From Methanobacteriota archaeon (GTDB taxonomy: Archaea > Halobacteriota > Methanosarcinia > Methanosarcinales > Methanosarcinaceae), in NCBI GenBank assembly GCA_016841265.1, contig JAENZL010000041.1, positions 1 to 34,633 of the forward strand: DNA of 34,633 nt, in the 5' to 3' direction. Below the pieces are notes generated by a model. That model searched no databases and was not told where the DNA came from. It was given only the letters and a program-made list of their open reading frames with translations. A program made the position numbers and the translations under genes. Of the stretch, positions 12,839-26,828 are shown piece by piece (the stretch's first letter is position 1; each line of letters opens with the position of its first letter).

Positions 12839-13954
12839 TTATATGACTATCAAATTTTGATCTTGCAAAGCAAACTTTTTAATGTTTATAGCGGCGTTTA
12901 TGTCCCGATCATGTTTTGTTTTACATTCAGGGCAAACCCATTCCCTTATTTCTAGAGTTATGTCCTTATTATGATAGCCGCAAACATTACACAACTTTGT
13001 TGATGGTTCAAATTGTCCTATTCTCAGAATGGTTTTTCCGTACCATTCGGCTTTATACTCCATTTTTGTAATGAAGCTTGACCATGAAGCATCACTTATA
13101 GCCTGTGCAAGACAGTGATTTTTTACCATGTTCTCGACTTTCAGAGTTTCAAACGCTATTGCTTGGTTCTCGCTGATTAATCTTGATGAAACTTTGTGCT
13201 GAAAATCAGTTCTTTGATTTGTTACCTTTTCATGGATTTTAGCAAGCCTTTTTATTGCTTTTTTCCGGTTATTAGAGCCTTTAACCTTCTTACTTAATTG
13301 TTTTTGAACTACCTTAAGACGCTGTAAAGAGTTTTTAAGATATTTCGGATTATCTATTTTTTCTCCATTTGACAAAACAGCAAAATCCTTTATTCCAACA
13401 TCAACACCTACTGTATTATTTTCTGTGAATGTTTGCTTTTCGGGCAAATCCTTTTCATCATCCACCAATATACTAATGAAATATTTTCCGGTTGAAGTTC
13501 TGGATACTGTTGCTGTTCTTAATTTACCTTCAAAATTCCTATGCAGGACAGCTTTAATTTCCCCTATTTTAGGAAGTTTTATTATATTTTGGTCAAAATC
13601 AACTATGTAATGTTGAGGTATTTCGAAGGATTGAACTGGATTCTTCTTTGATTTAAAGTTTGGAAAACCTGCTTTTTCTCTAAAGAACTTAGTAAAAGCA
13701 TTTTCCACATTTTTAGTCATTGCTTGCAATGACTGAGAATTTGATTCCTTTAACCATTCATGTTCTTTTTTTAGTTCAGGAATCATTTTATTAATGTCGA
13801 ATCTGGAAAATGATTTTCCTTCTTCTTGATATGATTTAATTTTTAGTTCTAAAGCCCAATTAAAAACAAATCGACAGCTACCTATATGTTTTGCTATCAT
13901 CGTTTTTTGTTCAGTTGTAGGATACAACCTGAATTTATAGGCTTTTAACATCAT
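12839..13954 (-). CDS. tnpB: TnpB RNA-guided nuclease (IS605 OrfB)
   Basis: A 371-residue, apparently intact TnpB. It starts with the usual MLKAYKFRLYPT and has the RuvC-like acidic residues in GVDVGIKDFAV (about 188-198), AFETLKVENM (about 268-277) and HDRDINAAINI (near 345-355). A zinc ribbon lies between the second and third (CNVCGYHNK...CPECKTKH). TnpB proteins cut DNA guided by the RNA from the transposon right end and help keep the element. ATG 13954 or 13951 follow GGTGAT directly. A TATA-like stretch (about 13974-13986, minus) precedes it. The partner tnpA is broken, so tnpB outlives mobility in cis. Confidence 0.93.
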   Translation of the reverse strand: MMLKAYKFRLYPTTEQKTMIAKHIGSCRFVFNWALELKIKSYQEEGKSFSRFDINKMIPELKKEHEWLKESNSQSLQAMTKNVENAFTKFFREKAGFPNFKSKKNPVQSFEIPQHYIVDFDQNIIKLPKIGEIKAVLHRNFEGKLRTATVSRTSTGKYFISILVDDEKDLPEKQTFTENNTVGVDVGIKDFAVLSNGEKIDNPKYLKNSLQRLKVVQKQLSKKVKGSNNRKKAIKRLAKIHEKVTNQRTDFQHKVSSRLISENQAIAFETLKVENMVKNHCLAQAISDASWSSFITKMEYKAEWYGKTILRIGQFEPSTKLCNVCGYHNKDITLEIREWVCPECKTKHDRDINAAINIKKFALQDQNLIVI

Positions 13955-17352: not shown

Positions 17353-17406
17353 TTTAAATAGTAGGGGGCTCAACTTACTAAATGAAACTGTTGTAGAGCA
17401 GCTACA
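17353..17406 (+). promoter_or_regulatory. Promoter and small inverted repeat of the R-M operon
   Basis: TATA-like TTTAAATA at 17353-17360, then TGTAG-AGCAG-CTACA at 17392-17406 in the expected leader. AGGAG precedes the ATG at 17450. The inverted repeat could be an operator or a leader hairpin. Confidence 0.45.
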
Positions 17407-17449: not shown

Positions 17450-18049
17450 ATGATAGATGAAACAAAAATACATTACATATTCATGGAAGACTGCATCAAA
17501 TCAGTGAAAAGGGGAATACCTACCCAACGCTTGAATGAGGAAAATGAGGAGTCTATTGAAGTTCCGTTCATTGGCGTGAAAGCAGTACAGGAAGGATACG
17601 TTGATACTGAAAATGTAGACTGGGTTAAAATTCACGACAAAGATGCCATTAAGAAAGCAACTGTTAATACAGGAGACCTTATACTCACCCTCAGAGGTTC
17701 ATATATCAAAGCAGCTGTTGCTGATAATTCTGTGGATGGATATGCCATTAGCGCTAATCTTATAGCGCTTACACTTACCAAAAAGATTAAACCTGAAATT
17801 GTCGCTGCCTACCTGAATGGTCCAGTTGGGCAGAGGGAATTAAACAAAAGAGCAGGAGGAACAGTCATGTTTTCCCTCACTTTGGGAAGTTTGAAAAAAG
17901 TCCCGATCCCTGTTAAATCAATTGAGGAACAAGAAGTACTACTAAGATTCATTAAACTGTCCAGTGAGTACAGGATGAACCTTGTGAGGGAATTGGAGCT
18001 TTGGGACAATATGAGAGAATCATTTATTGTGAAAAGGTTGGGGATCTAA
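17450..18049 (+). CDS. Half-size type I specificity subunit (single TRD HsdS)
   Basis: A 199-residue protein with one target-recognition domain followed by one conserved helix (about 160-195), i.e. half a usual HsdS. The TRD region shows VPFIGVKAVQEGYV, GDLILTLRGSYIKAAV, and AGGTVMFSLTLGSLKKVPIPVKSIEEQEVL, the standard end of a TRD. Half-size HsdS proteins can dimerise to read a palindromic bipartite site. AGGAG stands about 6 nt before the ATG. The stop is one base before the next gene, the HsdM-like protein with altered motif IV, so the two are translationally linked and probably form one complex. Confidence 0.85.
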   Translation: MIDETKIHYIFMEDCIKSVKRGIPTQRLNEENEESIEVPFIGVKAVQEGYVDTENVDWVKIHDKDAIKKATVNTGDLILTLRGSYIKAAVADNSVDGYAISANLIALTLTKKIKPEIVAAYLNGPVGQRELNKRAGGTVMFSLTLGSLKKVPIPVKSIEEQEVLLRFIKLSSEYRMNLVRELELWDNMRESFIVKRLGI

Positions 18050-18050
18050 T

Positions 18051-19517
18051 ATGACTGAATCAGATAAAGTGGCCTCCAAGATCATACGTATATACAGATC
18101 TATGCCCAGAGACGAAAAATATAAAAATGTTTTCTGGCCCCTTGTATTCAGAAAAAGGGTATCAGATGTATTTGAAGAAGAAGCAAAAGCAATTTACAGT
18201 GAAACAAAAGACGAGGATAAGGCGTGGAACCAACCTCAGTTCCATGACATTTTTGTTCCAGAAATTGCCAGATGGGGAAATCTGATGAGGACTAAAAATT
18301 ACCTCGGACATTTCCTTATGGAATCATTTAAAGAGCTCGAAAAAAGTAACGAATATCTGGATGGCGTGTTCTCACCAATTGAAAATCAAGTTTCTGCTAT
18401 AATGAGGGACAGAAAACTTGAAAATGATTATTTCCAGGTGATTTATGAACTCTCATTAATTCCAATGGACAGAGCTCATTTAGGAAATTCCCAATTCCAG
18501 GAAGTTTCTGACAAAATATTGGCTCATATAATGAAAGAGTGGTATCTTGGTGAATTTTATACTCCTGGCCAAATTTCAAAATTGTTGGCATCAATAGCGG
18601 ATCCCAGAGACAATATGACCGTTCTGGATCCATTCTGTGGAACGGGAGGATCACTGCTAGAATGTGAAAGGTATGCAAAGAAACATTCTGATGGCCATCT
18701 TTCTCTATTCGGTCAGGAGATTAAGGATAACATATGGATGCATTGCAGGCTTTCCCTCATATTGAACGGGTGTAAAGATTCTATTGTAGCGAATGCAGAT
18801 TCAATACTCTACCCTGCCTTTGTTGAGGACAATAATTTGAAACAGTTTGACAGGGTAATTTCAGTTCCTCCATTTGGAAAACAAAAATGGGGTTATGAAA
18901 TTGCAGAACGTGACCAGTATTCTCGTTTCCGCTATGGGATACCACCTAAAAACTCGGGAGATTTTGCATTTCTACAATACATGATAGCATGTCTAAAAAA
19001 TAGCGGAAAGGGTGTGATGGTATCTTCCGAGGGCATCCTTTTCAGAAGCGGCCCCGATGCTCGGATTCGAAAGAACATAGTACAGAGTGATATAATAGAA
19101 GCGATAATTCTGCTTCCACCAGGACTGTTCCTCAATACAGGAATCCCCACAATAATTACAGTCATCAACATGGACAAGCCCGAAGAAAGGCGGGGTTTAA
19201 TCCTGTTTATTTCGGCAGATCGGGAGTATGAAGAAATAAAGCGCCAAAAAATTTTGAACGACGACAACATCAAAAAAGTGGTTGATGCGTACAGAAATTA
19301 CAAGGATATTGAAAAGTTCTGCAGAGTGGTGAGCCTTGAAGAGATCAAGGATAATGACTATTCACTAAATTTTTCACTTTACGTTGACACTGAGCCTGAA
19401 ATCGAGACTGTAAATATTACAGAAACATTGAGTGAAATACGCAACTTGAAGAGTGAGAGAGATGAATTGCTAGAAGAACTTGTGGATATTATAGAAAAGT
19501 TTGACCAGAACGAATAA
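18051..19517 (+). CDS. HsdM-like N6-adenine methylase with altered motif IV (VPPF)
   Basis: A 488-residue member of the type I methylase family. It has the N-terminal helical domain, SAM motif I DPFCGTGGSL (about 193-202), FGQE, and the later LPPGLFLNTGIPT block. At the catalytic motif IV it reads SVPPFG (Val272), where active N6-adenine methylases have Asn or Asp in (N/D)PP(Y/F). Val is GTT, two base changes from any Asn codon, so a single sequencing error does not explain it. The Asn is needed for base-amine contact, so this protein probably cannot methylate but may bind SAM and DNA with the half-HsdS. A charged helix closes the C-terminus (about 455-488). Confidence 0.85.
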   Translation: MTESDKVASKIIRIYRSMPRDEKYKNVFWPLVFRKRVSDVFEEEAKAIYSETKDEDKAWNQPQFHDIFVPEIARWGNLMRTKNYLGHFLMESFKELEKSNEYLDGVFSPIENQVSAIMRDRKLENDYFQVIYELSLIPMDRAHLGNSQFQEVSDKILAHIMKEWYLGEFYTPGQISKLLASIADPRDNMTVLDPFCGTGGSLLECERYAKKHSDGHLSLFGQEIKDNIWMHCRLSLILNGCKDSIVANADSILYPAFVEDNNLKQFDRVISVPPFGKQKWGYEIAERDQYSRFRYGIPPKNSGDFAFLQYMIACLKNSGKGVMVSSEGILFRSGPDARIRKNIVQSDIIEAIILLPPGLFLNTGIPTIITVINMDKPEERRGLILFISADREYEEIKRQKILNDDNIKKVVDAYRNYKDIEKFCRVVSLEEIKDNDYSLNFSLYVDTEPEIETVNITETLSEIRNLKSERDELLEELVDIIEKFDQNE

Positions 19518-19565: not shown

Positions 19566-21608
19566 TTGAACAATTTCCAAGACAAGGCCAATTTCATATG
19601 GAGTGTAGCAGACGAGGTTTTAAGGGACGACTTGAAATCGGGGAAATATAGGGACGTAATATTGCCATTTACCGTAATAAGAAGGCTCGAATGCGTACTT
19701 GAACCAACCAAGGAAAAAGTAATCCAGAAAAATGAAAAATTGAAGGACAAGGTTAAGGATAGGAAAAGTGCCCTCTGTCATGAATCTGGACAGCGGTTCT
19801 ACAATACCTCCAAGTACGATATGAAAAAGCTCCTTGACGACTCGAAAAACATAAAAAAGAATTTCCTGGCGTACATTGATGCATTTTCTGAGAATGTAAC
19901 GGAGATTATATCGAAGTTCAAAATTGAAACATATATCGATCAACTTGATGAAAACAATCTCCTTTACTTGTTAATCAGTAAATTCGCTAATGTTGACCTA
20001 CACCCAGACGTGGTCAGCAATATCGAGATGGGATACATTTTCGAAGAACTGCTTCGGAAATTCAACGAGAGCATGAACGAAAATCCTGGTGAACATTTCA
20101 CCCCACGTGAAGTCATCGCCCTGATGGTGCACCTTTTGTTCTACCAAGATAAGGACATTCTTAGCCAGAGTCATCCAGTGCGTACTGTCTATGATCCTGC
20201 GTGCGGGACTGGGGGCATGTTGACAGTCTCAAAGGACTATGTTCGCGATTTCATCAATCCCGATGCGGACCTGCACCTTTATGGCCAGGAGGTAAATCCT
20301 GAAACCTATGCAATCGCCAAATCCGAATTACTGCTCAAAGGAGATGGCCGTGACGCCGAAAACATCAAGGAAAAATCAACACTTTCCAATGATGGCCACC
20401 CGAACATGACCTTCCATTACCAGCTTGCCAATCCCCCATTCGGGAAGGATTGGTCAAAGGATAAAGAGGCTGTTGAGAAGGAAGCCCTAGAGGGTCACAG
20501 TGGTCGGTTCGGTGCAGGGCTTCCGCGCAAAAGTGATGGCCAGATTTTGTTCCTGCAGAATATGATTTCAAAGATGAGGGCACCTGAAGACGGCGGAGGC
20601 CGTTTGGCCATTGTCATGAATGGCTCTCCGCTCTTCACAGGTGATGCTGGATCTGGGGAGAGTGAAATAAGAAGATGGATTCTTGAGAAAGATTATTTAG
20701 AAGCGATTGTAGCACTACCTGACCAGTTGTTCTATAACACAGGCATCTGTAGCTATGTCTGGGTACTGACAAACCGTAAAGAAGAACGAAGGGAAGGCAA
20801 GATCCAGCTCATCGATGGGACTGCATTCTACGTAAACATGCGAAAAAGCCTCGGCAACAAAAGACACGAGATCTCAACTAAACAAATAGAAAATCTGACA
20901 CTTATACACAACAGTTTCATTGAAAATGAATATTCTCAAATTCACAATAATAGGGAGTTTGGTTACCGCAAGATTACCATCGACCGACCACTCAAGTTGA
21001 GTTTCCAGGTAACAGATGACCGTATCGAGATGCTGAAAGAGCAGACAGCATTCCAGAACCTTGCAGTTAGTAAAAAGAGGAAGAAAGTAGAAGAAAAAGA
21101 AAAGGAAGAAGCTGAAGGTCGGAGATTACAGGAATCTATCCTGAAAGTTTTGTCTGGAATGGACAAGACTACCGTGTATAAGAATCGTGATGAGTTTTCC
21201 AGGGTCCTGAACAAAAACCTGAAGGATGCAGGATTTTCGATTAAATCACCTGTAAGAAAAGCCATTCTTGAAGTCATGTCCGAAAGAGACGAGACTGCCG
21301 ATACCTGCAAGGATAACAAAGGCAACGTCGAATATGACTCAAACCTTCGGGACTATGAGAGCGTTCCTCTGGATGAAGATATTTTCGAATATTTCGAGCG
21401 TGAAGTCAGACCTTATGTTCCAGATGCTTGGATAAATAAATCCATAACCGATGAAAACGATGGTAAAGTTGGGAAGGTTGGGTATACGATCAATTTCAAC
21501 CAGTATTTCTATAAGTACCAGCCTCCACGTTCTTTGCAGGAAATAGAAAAAGACATCAACGCGGTGGAAAAAGAAATTCTGGATATCCTGGGAGTGATGA
21601 AGCAATGA
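19566..21608 (+). CDS. hsdM: Type I R-M methylase subunit HsdM (canonical)
   Basis: A 680-residue N6-adenine methyltransferase subunit. Motif I DPACGTGG (about 209-216), YGQE, and catalytic NPPFG (about 289-293) are intact, in contrast to the preceding gene. An N-terminal helical domain opens the protein, and a long C-terminal extension (residues about 490-680) contains a Lys/Glu-rich coiled coil (KKRKKVEEKEKEEAEGRR). TTG 19566 is the start. GAGG lies 12 nt upstream and GTGATATC is nearer, so initiation is slightly unusual. The stop overlaps the hsdS ATG by four bases (ATGA). Confidence 0.93.
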   Translation: MNNFQDKANFIWSVADEVLRDDLKSGKYRDVILPFTVIRRLECVLEPTKEKVIQKNEKLKDKVKDRKSALCHESGQRFYNTSKYDMKKLLDDSKNIKKNFLAYIDAFSENVTEIISKFKIETYIDQLDENNLLYLLISKFANVDLHPDVVSNIEMGYIFEELLRKFNESMNENPGEHFTPREVIALMVHLLFYQDKDILSQSHPVRTVYDPACGTGGMLTVSKDYVRDFINPDADLHLYGQEVNPETYAIAKSELLLKGDGRDAENIKEKSTLSNDGHPNMTFHYQLANPPFGKDWSKDKEAVEKEALEGHSGRFGAGLPRKSDGQILFLQNMISKMRAPEDGGGRLAIVMNGSPLFTGDAGSGESEIRRWILEKDYLEAIVALPDQLFYNTGICSYVWVLTNRKEERREGKIQLIDGTAFYVNMRKSLGNKRHEISTKQIENLTLIHNSFIENEYSQIHNNREFGYRKITIDRPLKLSFQVTDDRIEMLKEQTAFQNLAVSKKRKKVEEKEKEEAEGRRLQESILKVLSGMDKTTVYKNRDEFSRVLNKNLKDAGFSIKSPVRKAILEVMSERDETADTCKDNKGNVEYDSNLRDYESVPLDEDIFEYFEREVRPYVPDAWINKSITDENDGKVGKVGYTINFNQYFYKYQPPRSLQEIEKDINAVEKEILDILGVMKQ

Positions 21609-22987
21609 GTGAATCCCAGGTCAAGTGTATAGATACCTCAGGGATGAAGACCTATCCAGAATATAAAGACTCAGGTGTTGAGTGGATTGGAAAGATTCCA
21701 AAGGAATGGGAAGTAAAAAAACTAAAACATCTGACCAAAAAAGTAATTGACGGCACTCACTTTACGCCCACATATGTTGATGAAGGAATTCCATTTTTAC
21801 GTGTAACAGACATACACAATAAGGAAATAGACTTAGAATCAGTAAAAATGATTCCAAAAAAAGAACATGTTGAACTCATCAAGAGATGCAGGCCTGAAAG
21901 AGGAGACCTACTACTTTCAAAAAATGGTACAATTGGAGTTCCTTGTGTAGTAACTTGGGACTGGAAATTCAGTATTTTTGTGAGTCTTTGTTTGATCAAA
22001 TTTGAACAAGAAATGAATGTGAATTATTCAAAATACTTATTTTTAAGTGATCAAATAGACGAACAGATTTCGATGGGAGGAAAGAAAAATACAATTACGA
22101 ATTTACATTTAGATAAAATTAAAGAGTTTCTATTCATAGTCCCACTCCTCCCAGAACAACAAGCCATATCAAATTTCCTTGACCATGAAACGTCCCGAAT
22201 CGACGCACTTGTAGGAAAGAAACAGCACATCATTGAACTTCTGGAAGAAAAACGGTCAGCCCTTATAAGTCACACAGTCACGAAAGGACTCAATACCAAT
22301 GTGCCAATGAAAGATTCTGGTATCGAGTGGGTAGGGGAGATTCCAGATGGATGGGAAGTCGTAAGATTGAAACATTTACTTCTTGACGGAAAAGAAGGAT
22401 TAAAAATTGGGCCATTTGGTAGTTCATTAAAATTAGATATTATGAAAGAAGATGGATACAAAGTTTATGGCCAAGAGAATGTCATAAATGAAAATTTCTC
22501 CAGAGGCAAACGTTTTATCGATGATTCAAAATTCAATGAGCTTCAAGTTTATGAAATTCATGAAGATGACATCGTAATTACTATGATGGGAACTACTGGG
22601 AAATCATGTGTTGTCCCGTCTAATCTGGAAAAAGGGATAATGGATTCTCATCTAATGAGAATTAGAACAAAAGAAGACGTCAATCCAGACTACATTTCTT
22701 TACTGATAAACAAATCCGACTACATAAATCATCAGGTTAAAATTAACAGTAACGGGGCAATAATGGATGGATTGAATTCTTCCATCGTAAAATCTCTTTT
22801 AGTTCTTTGCCCACCTATGGAAGAACAAAACGAAATTATGAACTACCTCATATCCAATAATCGAAGATTTGATCACCCACTTGAAAAGATAAAACAGTCC
22901 ATTGAGTACCTCAAAGAATACCGTACGGCACTGATTTCGGACGCTGTGACAGGAAAAATTGATGTTAGGGGGACTGCCTGTGAATAA
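21605..22987 (+). CDS. hsdS: Type I R-M specificity subunit HsdS (two TRDs)
   Basis: A 460-residue full HsdS. Each half begins with the same family phrase: KDSGVEWIGKIPKEWEV (about 21-37) and KDSGIEWVGEIPDGWEV (near 238-254). Each half closes with a long conserved helix (LPEQQAISNFLDHETSRIDAL..., MEEQNEIMNYL...). The two variable TRDs read the two halves of the target; the target itself cannot be read from sequence. Start ATG 21605 overlaps the hsdM stop. Its end overlaps the beginning of hsdR, so the last three genes are coupled. Confidence 0.93.
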   Translation: MSESQVKCIDTSGMKTYPEYKDSGVEWIGKIPKEWEVKKLKHLTKKVIDGTHFTPTYVDEGIPFLRVTDIHNKEIDLESVKMIPKKEHVELIKRCRPERGDLLLSKNGTIGVPCVVTWDWKFSIFVSLCLIKFEQEMNVNYSKYLFLSDQIDEQISMGGKKNTITNLHLDKIKEFLFIVPLLPEQQAISNFLDHETSRIDALVGKKQHIIELLEEKRSALISHTVTKGLNTNVPMKDSGIEWVGEIPDGWEVVRLKHLLLDGKEGLKIGPFGSSLKLDIMKEDGYKVYGQENVINENFSRGKRFIDDSKFNELQVYEIHEDDIVITMMGTTGKSCVVPSNLEKGIMDSHLMRIRTKEDVNPDYISLLINKSDYINHQVKINSNGAIMDGLNSSIVKSLLVLCPPMEEQNEIMNYLISNNRRFDHPLEKIKQSIEYLKEYRTALISDAVTGKIDVRGTACE

Positions 22988-25964
22988 ACCTTCGGAAGAA
23001 AAGTTTGAAGAAGATATTGAACTATCACTCGTCTGCAATAACAAATACATCCAACGTACGAACAGCAATTATGACCCCGAACTCTGCCTGGACCCTGATA
23101 TGTTGTTCGATTTTATCAGGACAACCCAGCCTGGGGAATGGAAAAAGCTCAAATCCCGACATGGGGCGGATGTCAAAGAAAATTTTCTTGACAGGTTGAC
23201 CAAAGACATTAAAAATCGTGGCACACTCAAAGTCCTGAGAACTGGGGTAAAGGATGTTGGGTGCCATTTCGATCTATTATATTCCAAACCTGAAACTGGA
23301 CTGAATGTGGAACATCAGGACAAATACCGTGCAAATATATTTTCAGTTATCCGACAGCTCCATTATAGTACGAAAACCCCTAAAAAATCCATTGATATGG
23401 TCCTGTTCATAAACGGCATACCTATTATCACTGCTGAACTCAAGAGTCCCCTGAATGAGCAGAATGTTGAACATGCAATCGACCAATATAAAAAACGGGA
23501 CTCAACTGAACCCCTTTTAAGTTTTAAAAGGTGTTTTGCTCATTTTGCAGTGGACCCGCGCTTTGTATTTATGACCACGAAACTAATGGATGAGTCTACG
23601 GAATTTCTTCCCTTCAACAAAGGGTACCAGTGTGGTGCAGGCAACCCTCCAGCATATGGCAAGGATGATTATGATACGGCTTACTTGTGGGAAGATATCT
23701 GGAAAAAGGATATGCTACTGGACATCATACAGAATTTCATCCAGCTTGTTAACAAGAAAGGAAAGAATGGGGTCCTGTCCCCTCAGTTAATTTTCCCGAG
23801 ATATCACCAGCTTGATGCGGTCAATCTCCTGGTAGAGAATACAAGGCTCAATGGTGCTGGGCAAAAGTACCTTATTGAGCATAGCGCAGGCAGCGGTAAA
23901 AGTTACACAATATCTCGTCTTTGCGACAAGCTATCAGGTCTTCATGACGAAAACAATGAGAACATTTTCGATACCATCATTGTCATTACCGATCGGCGGG
24001 TCCTGGATGACCAGCTCAGCCGAACGATACTGGGACATGAGCATGTGGAAGGTACGATAGTAAGTATCGAGAAGGACAAAGCCAAAAACCTCGCAAAAGC
24101 TATCGAAGACAACGCGAAAATTATTATTGTTACATTGCAGACATTCCCGTTTGCAATCGATTTATTCCACAAAACGCCAGGTAAACGGTTTGCTGTTGTT
24201 ATTGACGAAGCGCACTCGTCTCAGACAGGGGATACTGCACGTGATCTCAGGAGAGTGCTCGTAACTGAGGACTCAATCGAATATGAGGACGAACAGGTCA
24301 AGGATGTAGAAGACACCATCAATGAAAAAATGGAAGAAATCACTACGGACCTGAAACTTCAGCCCAAGAACATCAGCTTCTACGCATTCACTGCCACTCC
24401 CAAGAATAAAACTCTGGAAATGTTCGGGGTAGAGCAACCAGATGAAACTTTCGAACCCTTCCACCTGTATTCCATGAAACAGGCAATTGAAGAAAGATTT
24501 ATCCTTGATGTTCTTCAGAACTACACTACATACAATACGTACTTTGAGTTGATGAAGAAGATTGAAGATGACCCAAAATACAAAAAAACAATTGCTTCTT
24601 CCCTTCTTAAGTCCTATGTCGGTTCGAGTGAATATGCTATCAGGAAAAAAACAGAATTGATGCTGGATCATTTTTGGACAGGTACAACGGATCGTATTGG
24701 TGGTCGGGCTAAGGCAATGGTAGTTACAAACTCCAGAGCGAACGCTATACGATATGAACTGGAATTCAAAAAACAGGTTAAGGACAGAGAGTATCCATTT
24801 GAAGTCCTTGTTGCGTTTTCAGGGACGGTAAAAGGTGAAAATGTCCGCAAAGTATATACTGGCAAAGACTTCACCGAAAATGGTGAGAACGGCTTTCCAG
24901 AGAGACAGACAGCGGAAAAATTCAATGAAGATGAGTACAGGATACTGATAGTTGCCAACAAGTTCCAGACAGGTTTTGATCAGCCCTTGCTACATACCAT
25001 GTATGTGGACAAAAAGCTCGGAGGGGTCGAAGCCGTACAGACATTGAGCCGCCTGAACCGTAAGCATCCAGAAAAGTCCGATACCATGGTACTGGATTTT
25101 GTAAACGACGCTGAAAAGATTAGAGAATCATTTCAAAGGTACCATGTCAAGACCATTCTTACTGAACCCACTGACCCGAATAAACTGTACGATTATGAGA
25201 ATCAGTTGAAAGATTTTGCTGTATTCGATGACTCTGATATCAATAAATTTGCATCAGAATATTTCTCAAAAAAGGGAAAACAGGCAGTATTGTACACCTC
25301 GCTCCGCCCTGCAATTGAGAGATGGGGCAGACTGGAAGATGATGAAAAGCGGGATTTCAAGAAGAAGATGACAACCTTTGTACGTCAGTACGCCTTCCTC
25401 TCACAAATTATCTCGTTCTTCGACGAGAAACTGGAAAAGTTTTACCAATATTCTAAATACCTCGTAAAGGAGCTCCATGTGGACCTTGATAGGCTGCCAA
25501 CTGAAATCACGGAAAAAGTCAACATGAGTTCTTTCAGGATACAGGAAACTAGCAAAGGAAGCATCTTTCTTTCCGATGATGAAGGACGCCTGCGCCCTGT
25601 TCCCGAACCAGGTGCAACCCGTCCACCTGACGATGAATTGACACCCCTTTCTGAGATCATCAAAGAAATTAATGAACACTGTGGCACTGATTTTACGGAA
25701 GAGGATAAAGTGGGGCAAGTGCTCGGTGATTTGCAGAAGAACCTGATCGAAAACCCACGCTTGGCAGCTGCCGCAAATACTGCAATCAACAAGAAAGAGG
25801 ATTTTGAGCTGGTATTCAAAGAGATCGTTTCAGATGAATTGGATGAACTGGCCGATATAAATATTGACATATATTCTAAGATAAAAAACGATGCAGATTT
25901 CGGGAAGATGGTCAAAGAAATGTTGTTGAATAATGTATACAAGAAGCTTGTTCAGAAAGATTGA
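22980..25964 (+). CDS. hsdR: Type I restriction subunit HsdR
   Basis: A 994-residue restriction and translocation subunit. The nuclease site is visible as Asp139...Glu153-Leu-Lys155 (IDMVLF...AELKSP). The SF2 motor has Walker A GSGKS (about 304-308), DEAH (about 408-411), FTATP, VVTNSRANAIRY and the motif VI region TLSRLNRKHP. GTG 22980 is chosen: AGGGGG lies about 8 nt upstream and the start overlaps the hsdS stop. The frame is open to 22959. The enzyme would translocate DNA and cut it away from unmethylated sites. It appears complete. A hairpin at 26002-26028 follows. Confidence 0.93.
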   Translation: MNKPSEEKFEEDIELSLVCNNKYIQRTNSNYDPELCLDPDMLFDFIRTTQPGEWKKLKSRHGADVKENFLDRLTKDIKNRGTLKVLRTGVKDVGCHFDLLYSKPETGLNVEHQDKYRANIFSVIRQLHYSTKTPKKSIDMVLFINGIPIITAELKSPLNEQNVEHAIDQYKKRDSTEPLLSFKRCFAHFAVDPRFVFMTTKLMDESTEFLPFNKGYQCGAGNPPAYGKDDYDTAYLWEDIWKKDMLLDIIQNFIQLVNKKGKNGVLSPQLIFPRYHQLDAVNLLVENTRLNGAGQKYLIEHSAGSGKSYTISRLCDKLSGLHDENNENIFDTIIVITDRRVLDDQLSRTILGHEHVEGTIVSIEKDKAKNLAKAIEDNAKIIIVTLQTFPFAIDLFHKTPGKRFAVVIDEAHSSQTGDTARDLRRVLVTEDSIEYEDEQVKDVEDTINEKMEEITTDLKLQPKNISFYAFTATPKNKTLEMFGVEQPDETFEPFHLYSMKQAIEERFILDVLQNYTTYNTYFELMKKIEDDPKYKKTIASSLLKSYVGSSEYAIRKKTELMLDHFWTGTTDRIGGRAKAMVVTNSRANAIRYELEFKKQVKDREYPFEVLVAFSGTVKGENVRKVYTGKDFTENGENGFPERQTAEKFNEDEYRILIVANKFQTGFDQPLLHTMYVDKKLGGVEAVQTLSRLNRKHPEKSDTMVLDFVNDAEKIRESFQRYHVKTILTEPTDPNKLYDYENQLKDFAVFDDSDINKFASEYFSKKGKQAVLYTSLRPAIERWGRLEDDEKRDFKKKMTTFVRQYAFLSQIISFFDEKLEKFYQYSKYLVKELHVDLDRLPTEITEKVNMSSFRIQETSKGSIFLSDDEGRLRPVPEPGATRPPDDELTPLSEIIKEINEHCGTDFTEEDKVGQVLGDLQKNLIENPRLAAAANTAINKKEDFELVFKEIVSDELDELADINIDIYSKIKNDADFGKMVKEMLLNNVYKKLVQKD

Positions 25965-26039: not shown

Positions 26040-26828
26040 TTAACTTCTGTTTTCAAGAATGCAACTAATTTTAGCTATTACATCTCCTGATCCCGTAAGT
26101 TTAATTCCTTTTTCCCTTCCACTTCTGTCTGTTGAAACGAAACCGTGAGTCTCCAATTTTTTTACAACTTGAGAATACTTGTTTCTGTTTGAACCAGAAT
26201 ATTCAATATTAAGCCCATCTTCCACCAGAGACTTAAGGGAATTGTATTTTTCTTTTTTGGTACCGCTTATTGCTTTCAACACATCAAGTTCGTCTTTAGC
26301 AGGTGGCTCCATTTTCAGAACGGGTATCTCAATGGGTTCTTTTACACCAGTGCTAAGATATCTCTTATTTTGAAGTAAGTCATTGATGATCTTCTTAGAG
26401 GAATCATCGTTATGTTTATTCAAAAGGGGGATTAACTCAAGTGAAAGATAACTGACTACAGGAACGTAATATATCCTCGCAGAAAATAGTGAAGCTGCCA
26501 TGTATGAGGCTTGGGTCATTATTTTCGTGGAAGAGGAAATATTTATGTAAACAACTTCGCCTGCAGCCCCCTCTCCTTCTTTTGAGATAATCTTTGCCAA
26601 TGTATTTATACAGTTTGCAAAATCTAATAAGTTTGCCGATTCTTCTTCAATTTTTACGTGTTTTCCGATCCCTTTTATTACCTCATCTTTTATGTTTTTG
26701 ACTTCTTTTTCGATATCATTCTGCCTGGTCCCTGTCAAAAGAATAACTTTTGATGGGGGGAATTTACGGAATCCCTCAACAAACCTCTCTGGTGAATCCA
26801 AACCTATTGGGACTATATGAATTGTCAT
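26040..26828 (-). CDS. CARF-like domain plus winged helix regulator (DUF6293/HFX_2341-like)
   Basis: A 262-residue protein in two parts. Residues 1-170 form a Rossmann-like CARF domain: beta-strand opening IHIVPIGLDSPERFV, KVILLTGTR, and NISSSTKIM (96-104), the Ser/Thr-Lys ligand loop of CARF proteins. Residues 180-262 are a winged helix (LVEDGLNIEYSGSNRNKYSQVVKKLETHGFV...). Such proteins are thought to sense cyclic oligoadenylate or a similar nucleotide and control transcription, usually near CRISPR-Cas genes. No cas gene or CRISPR is here; it sits tail-to-tail with the type I R-M operon. Start ATG 26828 follows AGGGGA. Confidence 0.82.
   Translation of the reverse strand: MTIHIVPIGLDSPERFVEGFRKFPPSKVILLTGTRQNDIEKEVKNIKDEVIKGIGKHVKIEEESANLLDFANCINTLAKIISKEGEGAAGEVVYINISSSTKIMTQASYMAASLFSARIYYVPVVSYLSLELIPLLNKHNDDSSKKIINDLLQNKRYLSTGVKEPIEIPVLKMEPPAKDELDVLKAISGTKKEKYNSLKSLVEDGLNIEYSGSNRNKYSQVVKKLETHGFVSTDRSGREKGIKLTGSGDVIAKISCILENRS

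Follow-up and report, generated by a model that had tools for sequence, protein, structure and literature searches.

A half-HsdS and a degenerate HsdM ahead of an archaeal type I restriction-modification operon as a candidate operator-binding autoregulator

Introduction

According to a 2025 review, surprisingly little is known about the transcriptional regulation of type I restriction-modification (R-M) systems (PMC12707154). C proteins are known controllers of R-M systems, and in Mollicutes one of them is encoded in front of a type I operon (PMC5282649, PMC12707154). RptR is another known R-M controller (PMC12255303). These regulators are encoded first in or near the R-M operon and bind repeats in the promoter. 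Moreover, the methyltransferases M.Ecl18kI and M.EcoRII are repressors that control their own operons (PMC12707154). Both are type II enzymes that carry a fused repressor domain and are still active.

The closest systems with respect to protein architecture are the type I M2S methyltransferases (7VRU/7VS4; EcoR124I, 7BST) and their engineered half-S derivatives. It has been demonstrated that an M subunit combined with a half-S, as well as fused M-half-S proteins, form dimers that recognise palindromic bipartite sites (PMC6158711). Among solved structures, the half-S closest to the one analysed here is Esub1 (PDB 8VSQ and 8VSR; E 1e-14 with our half-S profile), a protein of 198-206 aa with a single target recognition domain (TRD). 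The entry 8VSR, released on 2024-12-25, is entitled 'Co-crystal structure of Prx with Esub1'. Prx (paratox) is encoded by streptococcal phages and is described as binding the competence regulator ComR (PMC11129628), and we infer that the Prx of 8VSR is this paratox.

Here, we describe an archaeal locus that encodes a natural half-S together with an HsdM homologue, named M0, that has lost its catalytic motif IV. The pair resembles the type I M2S and engineered half-S enzymes in its domains, in its fold family as judged by sequence, in the joint encoding of M and S and in the presence of a palindrome of the kind that is bound by half-S dimers. It differs from them by the loss of motif IV, by the natural occurrence of the half-S and by the location of the palindrome in its own promoter.

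Gene order and catalytic motifs

The window, that is, the whole stretch of 34,633 nucleotides analysed, belongs to a genome of the family Methanosarcinaceae. It contains from position 17450 on the + strand the genes for the half-S, M0, HsdM, HsdS and HsdR in this order. One base separates the half-S gene from M0 and 48 bases separate M0 from hsdM. The features of the operon are as follows:

17353..17360, + strand: TATA box TTTAAATA, presumed promoter of the five-gene operon
17392..17406, + strand: TGTAG-AGCAG-CTACA, a bipartite palindrome and presumed operator that precedes the half-S start codon by 43 bases
17450..18049, + strand: half-HsdS, 199 aa, one TRD (Pfam Methylase_S, E 2e-8)
18051..19517, + strand: M0, HsdM-like, 488 aa (Pfam HsdM_N and N6_Mtase), motif IV VPPF
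18627..18650, + strand: motif I DPFCGTGG of M0, intact (translation and alignment)
18864..18875, + strand: motif IV VPPF of M0, Val272 replacing Asn/Asp (alignment to 7VRU chain A)
19566..21608, + strand: hsdM, 680 aa (Pfam; PADLOC MTase_I, 917 bits)
20430-20441, + strand: motif IV NPPF of the main hsdM, intact
21605..22987, + strand: hsdS, 460 aa, two TRDs (Pfam and PADLOC)
22959..25964, + strand: hsdR, 1001 aa (Pfam HSDR_N, SWI2_SNF2 and T1R_D3-like)

The original prediction of two S genes, two M genes and one R gene, with a single-TRD S and a first M preceding a complete operon whose M is intact, agrees with these reading frames, lengths and motifs. The same is true for the proposed valine in motif IV of a protein that keeps its SAM motif. 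Using chain A of 7VRU, the solved HsdM nearest to M0, as the reference, Val272, encoded by GTT at 18864-18866, takes the position of the motif IV asparagine. The promoter elements upstream of the half-S gene had been missed.

M0 contains the N6_Mtase (E 1.7e-78) and HsdM_N (E 9.1e-12) domains, shares only 29% identity with the main M of the window and carries an intact SAM motif I. However, active type I methyltransferases show [N/D]PP[FYW] at motif IV and work with an S subunit that has two TRDs, whereas M0 has VPPF and its partner is a half-S. Relatives with 31-39% identity to M0 have kept the motif IV asparagine in those cases that were checked (NPPF, NPPY, NPPW or NPMW). Two candidates for close relatives, L047 and G462, turned out to be ordinary M genes with NPMW or NPPF and were rejected. 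A group of archaeal HsdM proteins (L019, L021-L026) has NPMW instead of NPPF at motif IV. AlphaFold2 models computed from two-row alignments reached pLDDT values of 35 (half-S) and 33 (M0), at which a fold comparison carries no weight.

Because motif IV lacks the Asn/Asp of an active enzyme, the pair is assigned, as far as the sequence allows, to R-M control and not to the active methyltransferases. A symmetric sequence at the R-M promoter, as is typical of a controller, is present downstream of the TATA box in both genera examined (see below). C proteins and RptR are small dedicated DNA-binding proteins, the former of the helix-turn-helix type, whereas Pfam detects only Methylase_S and HsdM domains in the pair, and the presumed binder would be a dead type I methyltransferase. 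The pair also has homology to the M and S components of MADS (MAD2/MAD5), but the scores of 46.1 and 36.3 bits are far below the curated cut-offs of 720 and 400, respectively.

Several further genes were observed in the window and in the same genome. A CARF/winged-helix gene (HFX_2341/DUF6293-like; 26040-26828, - strand) is convergent with hsdR. A TnpB-type IS605 OrfB protein with a Cas12f-like domain is encoded at 12839-13954 (- strand). Contig C20 carries a second type I system (L009, 4337-7317) consisting of tandem HsdM genes (NPPF and NPPY), S and R, which resembles the heteromeric M1-M2 enzyme 7VRU.

Conservation in a second archaeal genus

A search of 186 genomes of the order uncovered one close relative of M0, which is 86% identical and belongs to another genus (G156). 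The locus of this genome (L046) has the five genes arranged as in the window, from half-S through M0, M and S to R, with the same CARF gene behind them. VPPF is retained, and the valine codon has changed synonymously from GTT in the window to GTG in G156. The half-S proteins are 77% identical, with a dN/dS of 0.16-0.19. For M0 the dN/dS is 0.18-0.25, and for the main M and R it is 0.05-0.12. The half-S and M0 genes are thus under purifying selection that is less tight than that acting on the main M and R. Since VPPF, gene order and selection hold in G156, M0 is not a lone decayed copy. NPPF at this position in nearly all close relatives would have counted against the original prediction, but the close relative has VPPF. 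A DNA pattern for VPPF matched only the own genome among 393 genomes of the phylum, a set that does not include G156, so this result says little. Pattern-based scans of genome contigs and of viral contigs with M0 yielded no relatives.

The main HsdS proteins of the two loci are only 41% identical. The TRDs of the main HsdS have thus been exchanged between the two archaeal loci while the specificity of the half-S was kept, which is the expectation for a fixed operator.

Three further observations concern the two loci. At synonymous sites, M0 has diverged much less (0.29-0.38) than the half-S, M and R genes of the same operon (about 0.5-1.0), which hints at recombination inside the operon. The CARF gene of G156 (L046, 1140-1928) is 90% identical to that of the window and is likewise convergent with hsdR; a CRISPR-type sensor fold has been kept next to the type I operon in both genera. 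G156 also contains, between hsdR and the CARF gene, a reading frame for 266 aa without a Pfam match (L046, 2691-3491) that does not occur in the window.

Related pairs in archaea and bacteria

Pairs of a half-S and a degenerate M, either split or fused, were also found in plasmids of Carboxydocella, Lactococcus, Lactobacillus, Salimicrobium, Paenibacillus and Moellerella. These companions often precede a complete type I operon and sometimes stand alone. The set consists of loci retrieved through their resemblance to the half-S/M0 pair, as opposed to an unbiased survey, and a phage M-S protein (L097) was excluded from it. Its members are:

G102 (same family), split: motif IV SYPI, motif I YEPFCTLG; R-M genes absent nearby
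Carboxydocella plasmid, split: VPPW, motif I YEPFARIG; ahead of R-S-M
Moellerella, split: EPPM; beside Tn7-like genes, ahead of M and S
Levilactobacillus, split: DPPY; ahead of M-S-R
Nostoc, split: NPPF, intact
Lactococcus cremoris, fused M-half-S: VPPF, motif I DATAGTAG; ahead of M-S and R
Lactobacillus amylovorus, fused M-half-S: FPPI; ahead of M-S and a helicase-type R
Salimicrobium, fused M-half-S: NFPF; ahead of M-S-R
Paenibacillus crassostreae, fused M-half-S: HPPL; without adjacent R-M genes
Aliivibrio, fused M-half-S: FPPF, motif I gone
Subdoligranulum, fused M-half-S: DYPF
Cyanobacterium Dongsha4, fused M-half-S: motif I and motif IV both gone

The Asn/Asp of motif IV is missing in most companions, often together with motif I, and the main M adjoining a companion has kept NPPF wherever it was read. 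The M proteins of the partner R-M systems come from unrelated lineages. The degenerate Ms may form one clade or several and may have lost the motif once or often; a tree built from M0 and canonical M proteins has long branches and does not tell these cases apart. The pair had been described as binding SAM and DNA without methylating. A DNA binder that does not methylate is well supported as a reading of the motif loss, but SAM binding is no trait of the family: motif I is degraded in most companions other than the archaeal pair. The pairs of G102 and Paenibacillus also reveal that such pairs are not always neighbours of hsdMSR. A gene for a PP2C phosphatase lies directly upstream of the pair in G102 (L076, 9902-10567, - strand).

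With an Esub1 fragment as the query, mainly fused companions in plasmids were found, and Esub1 may therefore be the half-S of such a companion pair. Literature searches for Esub1, inactive HsdM and half HsdS retrieved no description of a half-S/dead-M pair.

Palindromes at the promoters

Alignment of the upstream regions of the window and G156, which have otherwise strongly diverged, revealed an identical TATA box, TTTAAATAGTA. About 30 bases past it, TGTAG-AGCAG-CTACA in the window corresponds to TGTAG-GACGT-CTACA in the second locus; the arms are the same and the spacer differs. TGTAG-N5-CTACA occurs once in the window and in none of 100 shuffles. Genome-wide, there are two copies in the own genome and one in G156, with one copy in each genome located at the half-S promoter. 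The other copy of the own genome (L096, 2153; C40) lies between two divergent reading frames, in a promoter-like place.

Because engineered half-S enzymes dimerise on palindromes (PMC6158711), the archaeal pair should read a palindrome as well, and TGTAG-N5-CTACA has the geometry that is expected of a half-S dimer. The would-be target adenines are 8 bp apart, as are those of the EcoR124I site GAA(N6)RTCG. Another protein could, however, be the owner of the palindrome.

Palindromes upstream of the bacterial companions were listed exhaustively. Salimicrobium has AGTAATTAAATTACT at -146 and AGTAATCGAATTACT at -48, upstream of a DUF2325 gene that is followed by the fusion. Lactococcus has AGTATTAGCCATACT at -186 and AGTATTTCGAATACT at -45 upstream of the companion. 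In both cases, the palindromes flank a TTGAC-type promoter on both sides. A second Lactococcus strain has unchanged arms and altered spacers. In L. amylovorus, AGTAT-N6-ATACT lies upstream of the gene that precedes the fusion. GTA...TAC is common to these three and the archaeal palindromes, and the layout GTA-N7-TAC occurs twice before the Salimicrobium companion and twice before that of Lactococcus.

A GTA-core site is present in 4 of 13 independent loci, whereas shuffles gave 0.24 and none of 1000 reached the observed number. For the N5 form alone the values are three loci versus 0.06, again with 0 of 1000. When 137 upstream regions from these loci were inspected, the GTA-core site was found at companion genes only and nowhere else (0). 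The core had been derived from the data beforehand, so that all of these figures are partly post hoc. With the archaeal pair left out, the N5 form is still present in two other loci, twice in each. The count disregards AT-rich palindromes with different layouts that lie in front of other loci. The TRDs of the nine loci without a GTA-core site may read other sequences.

Possible functions of the pair

We favour, with a probability of about 0.58, the interpretation that a catalytically dead (M0)2(half-S)2 complex is an operator-binding autoregulator of the R-M operon. The half-S and M0 would assemble into a dimer resembling a type I methyltransferase, which would still read a bipartite palindrome and be unable to methylate it. 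By occupying TGTAG-N5-CTACA, shortly past the TATA box, the complex would hinder or tune transcription of its own operon, from the half-S gene to hsdR, and the paired sites around the bacterial promoters would permit looping. In contrast to M.Ecl18kI and M.EcoRII, the reading module itself would repress. A regulator of HsdR was among three roles originally suggested for the pair and was the best of these guesses, but the palindrome in the pair's own promoter points to transcription, not to HsdR, as its target.

Alternatively, the half-S and M0 might join the main HsdM, HsdS or HsdR and act as a dominant-negative, protein-level brake on restriction. The usual location of the pair beside a complete type I system speaks for this possibility, which we nevertheless regard as unlikely: the 29% identity between M0 and the main M and the unrelated lineages of the partner Ms make shared interfaces doubtful, the pairs of G102 and Paenibacillus exist without R-M genes nearby, and the promoter palindromes would be left unexplained. 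The two solitary pairs also count against an obligate decoy for HsdR, another of the roles suggested originally.

It is more improbable still that the pair is an independent defence module, which would detect a foreign site and recruit HsdR or another effector without host methylation. The pair does lie in defence neighbourhoods, and a phage protein, Prx, binds the related half-S Esub1. However, the host genome itself contains the sole candidate site, both at the promoter of the pair and at another position, where it would have to be spared from self-attack, and the loci share no dedicated effector. These points weaken the third of the original suggestions, recognition without modification.

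An active methyltransferase despite Val272, perhaps with the main HsdM as the catalytic partner, is very improbable. The intact motif I of the archaeal pair, the apparently active pairs of Nostoc (NPPF) and of one DPPY locus and the existence of heteromeric M1-M2-S enzymes (7VRU) are compatible with activity, but most members have lost the Asn/Asp of motif IV, often along with motif I. Functionless remnants of duplicated hsd genes are the least probable explanation of all: the dN/dS of M0 does exceed that of the main M and R, but it is well below 1, the frames are open in two genera, Val272 has been kept through a synonymous change and similar pairs recur elsewhere.

Conclusions

Beyond the archaeal operon, the autoregulator interpretation can be extended tentatively, with somewhat less than even odds, to a wider class in which dead type I methyltransferases, split or fused, would regulate type I R-M operons in archaea and bacteria, with paired sites at bacterial promoters, and in which phages would target them via proteins such as Prx. 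The predicted operator of 15 bp makes the control of type I R-M systems directly testable, including those on the Lactococcus and Salimicrobium plasmids. If the interpretation is true, some of the genes annotated as 'N-6 DNA methylase' would encode regulators that are incapable of methylation, and a type I system would have a controller made of its own kind of parts.
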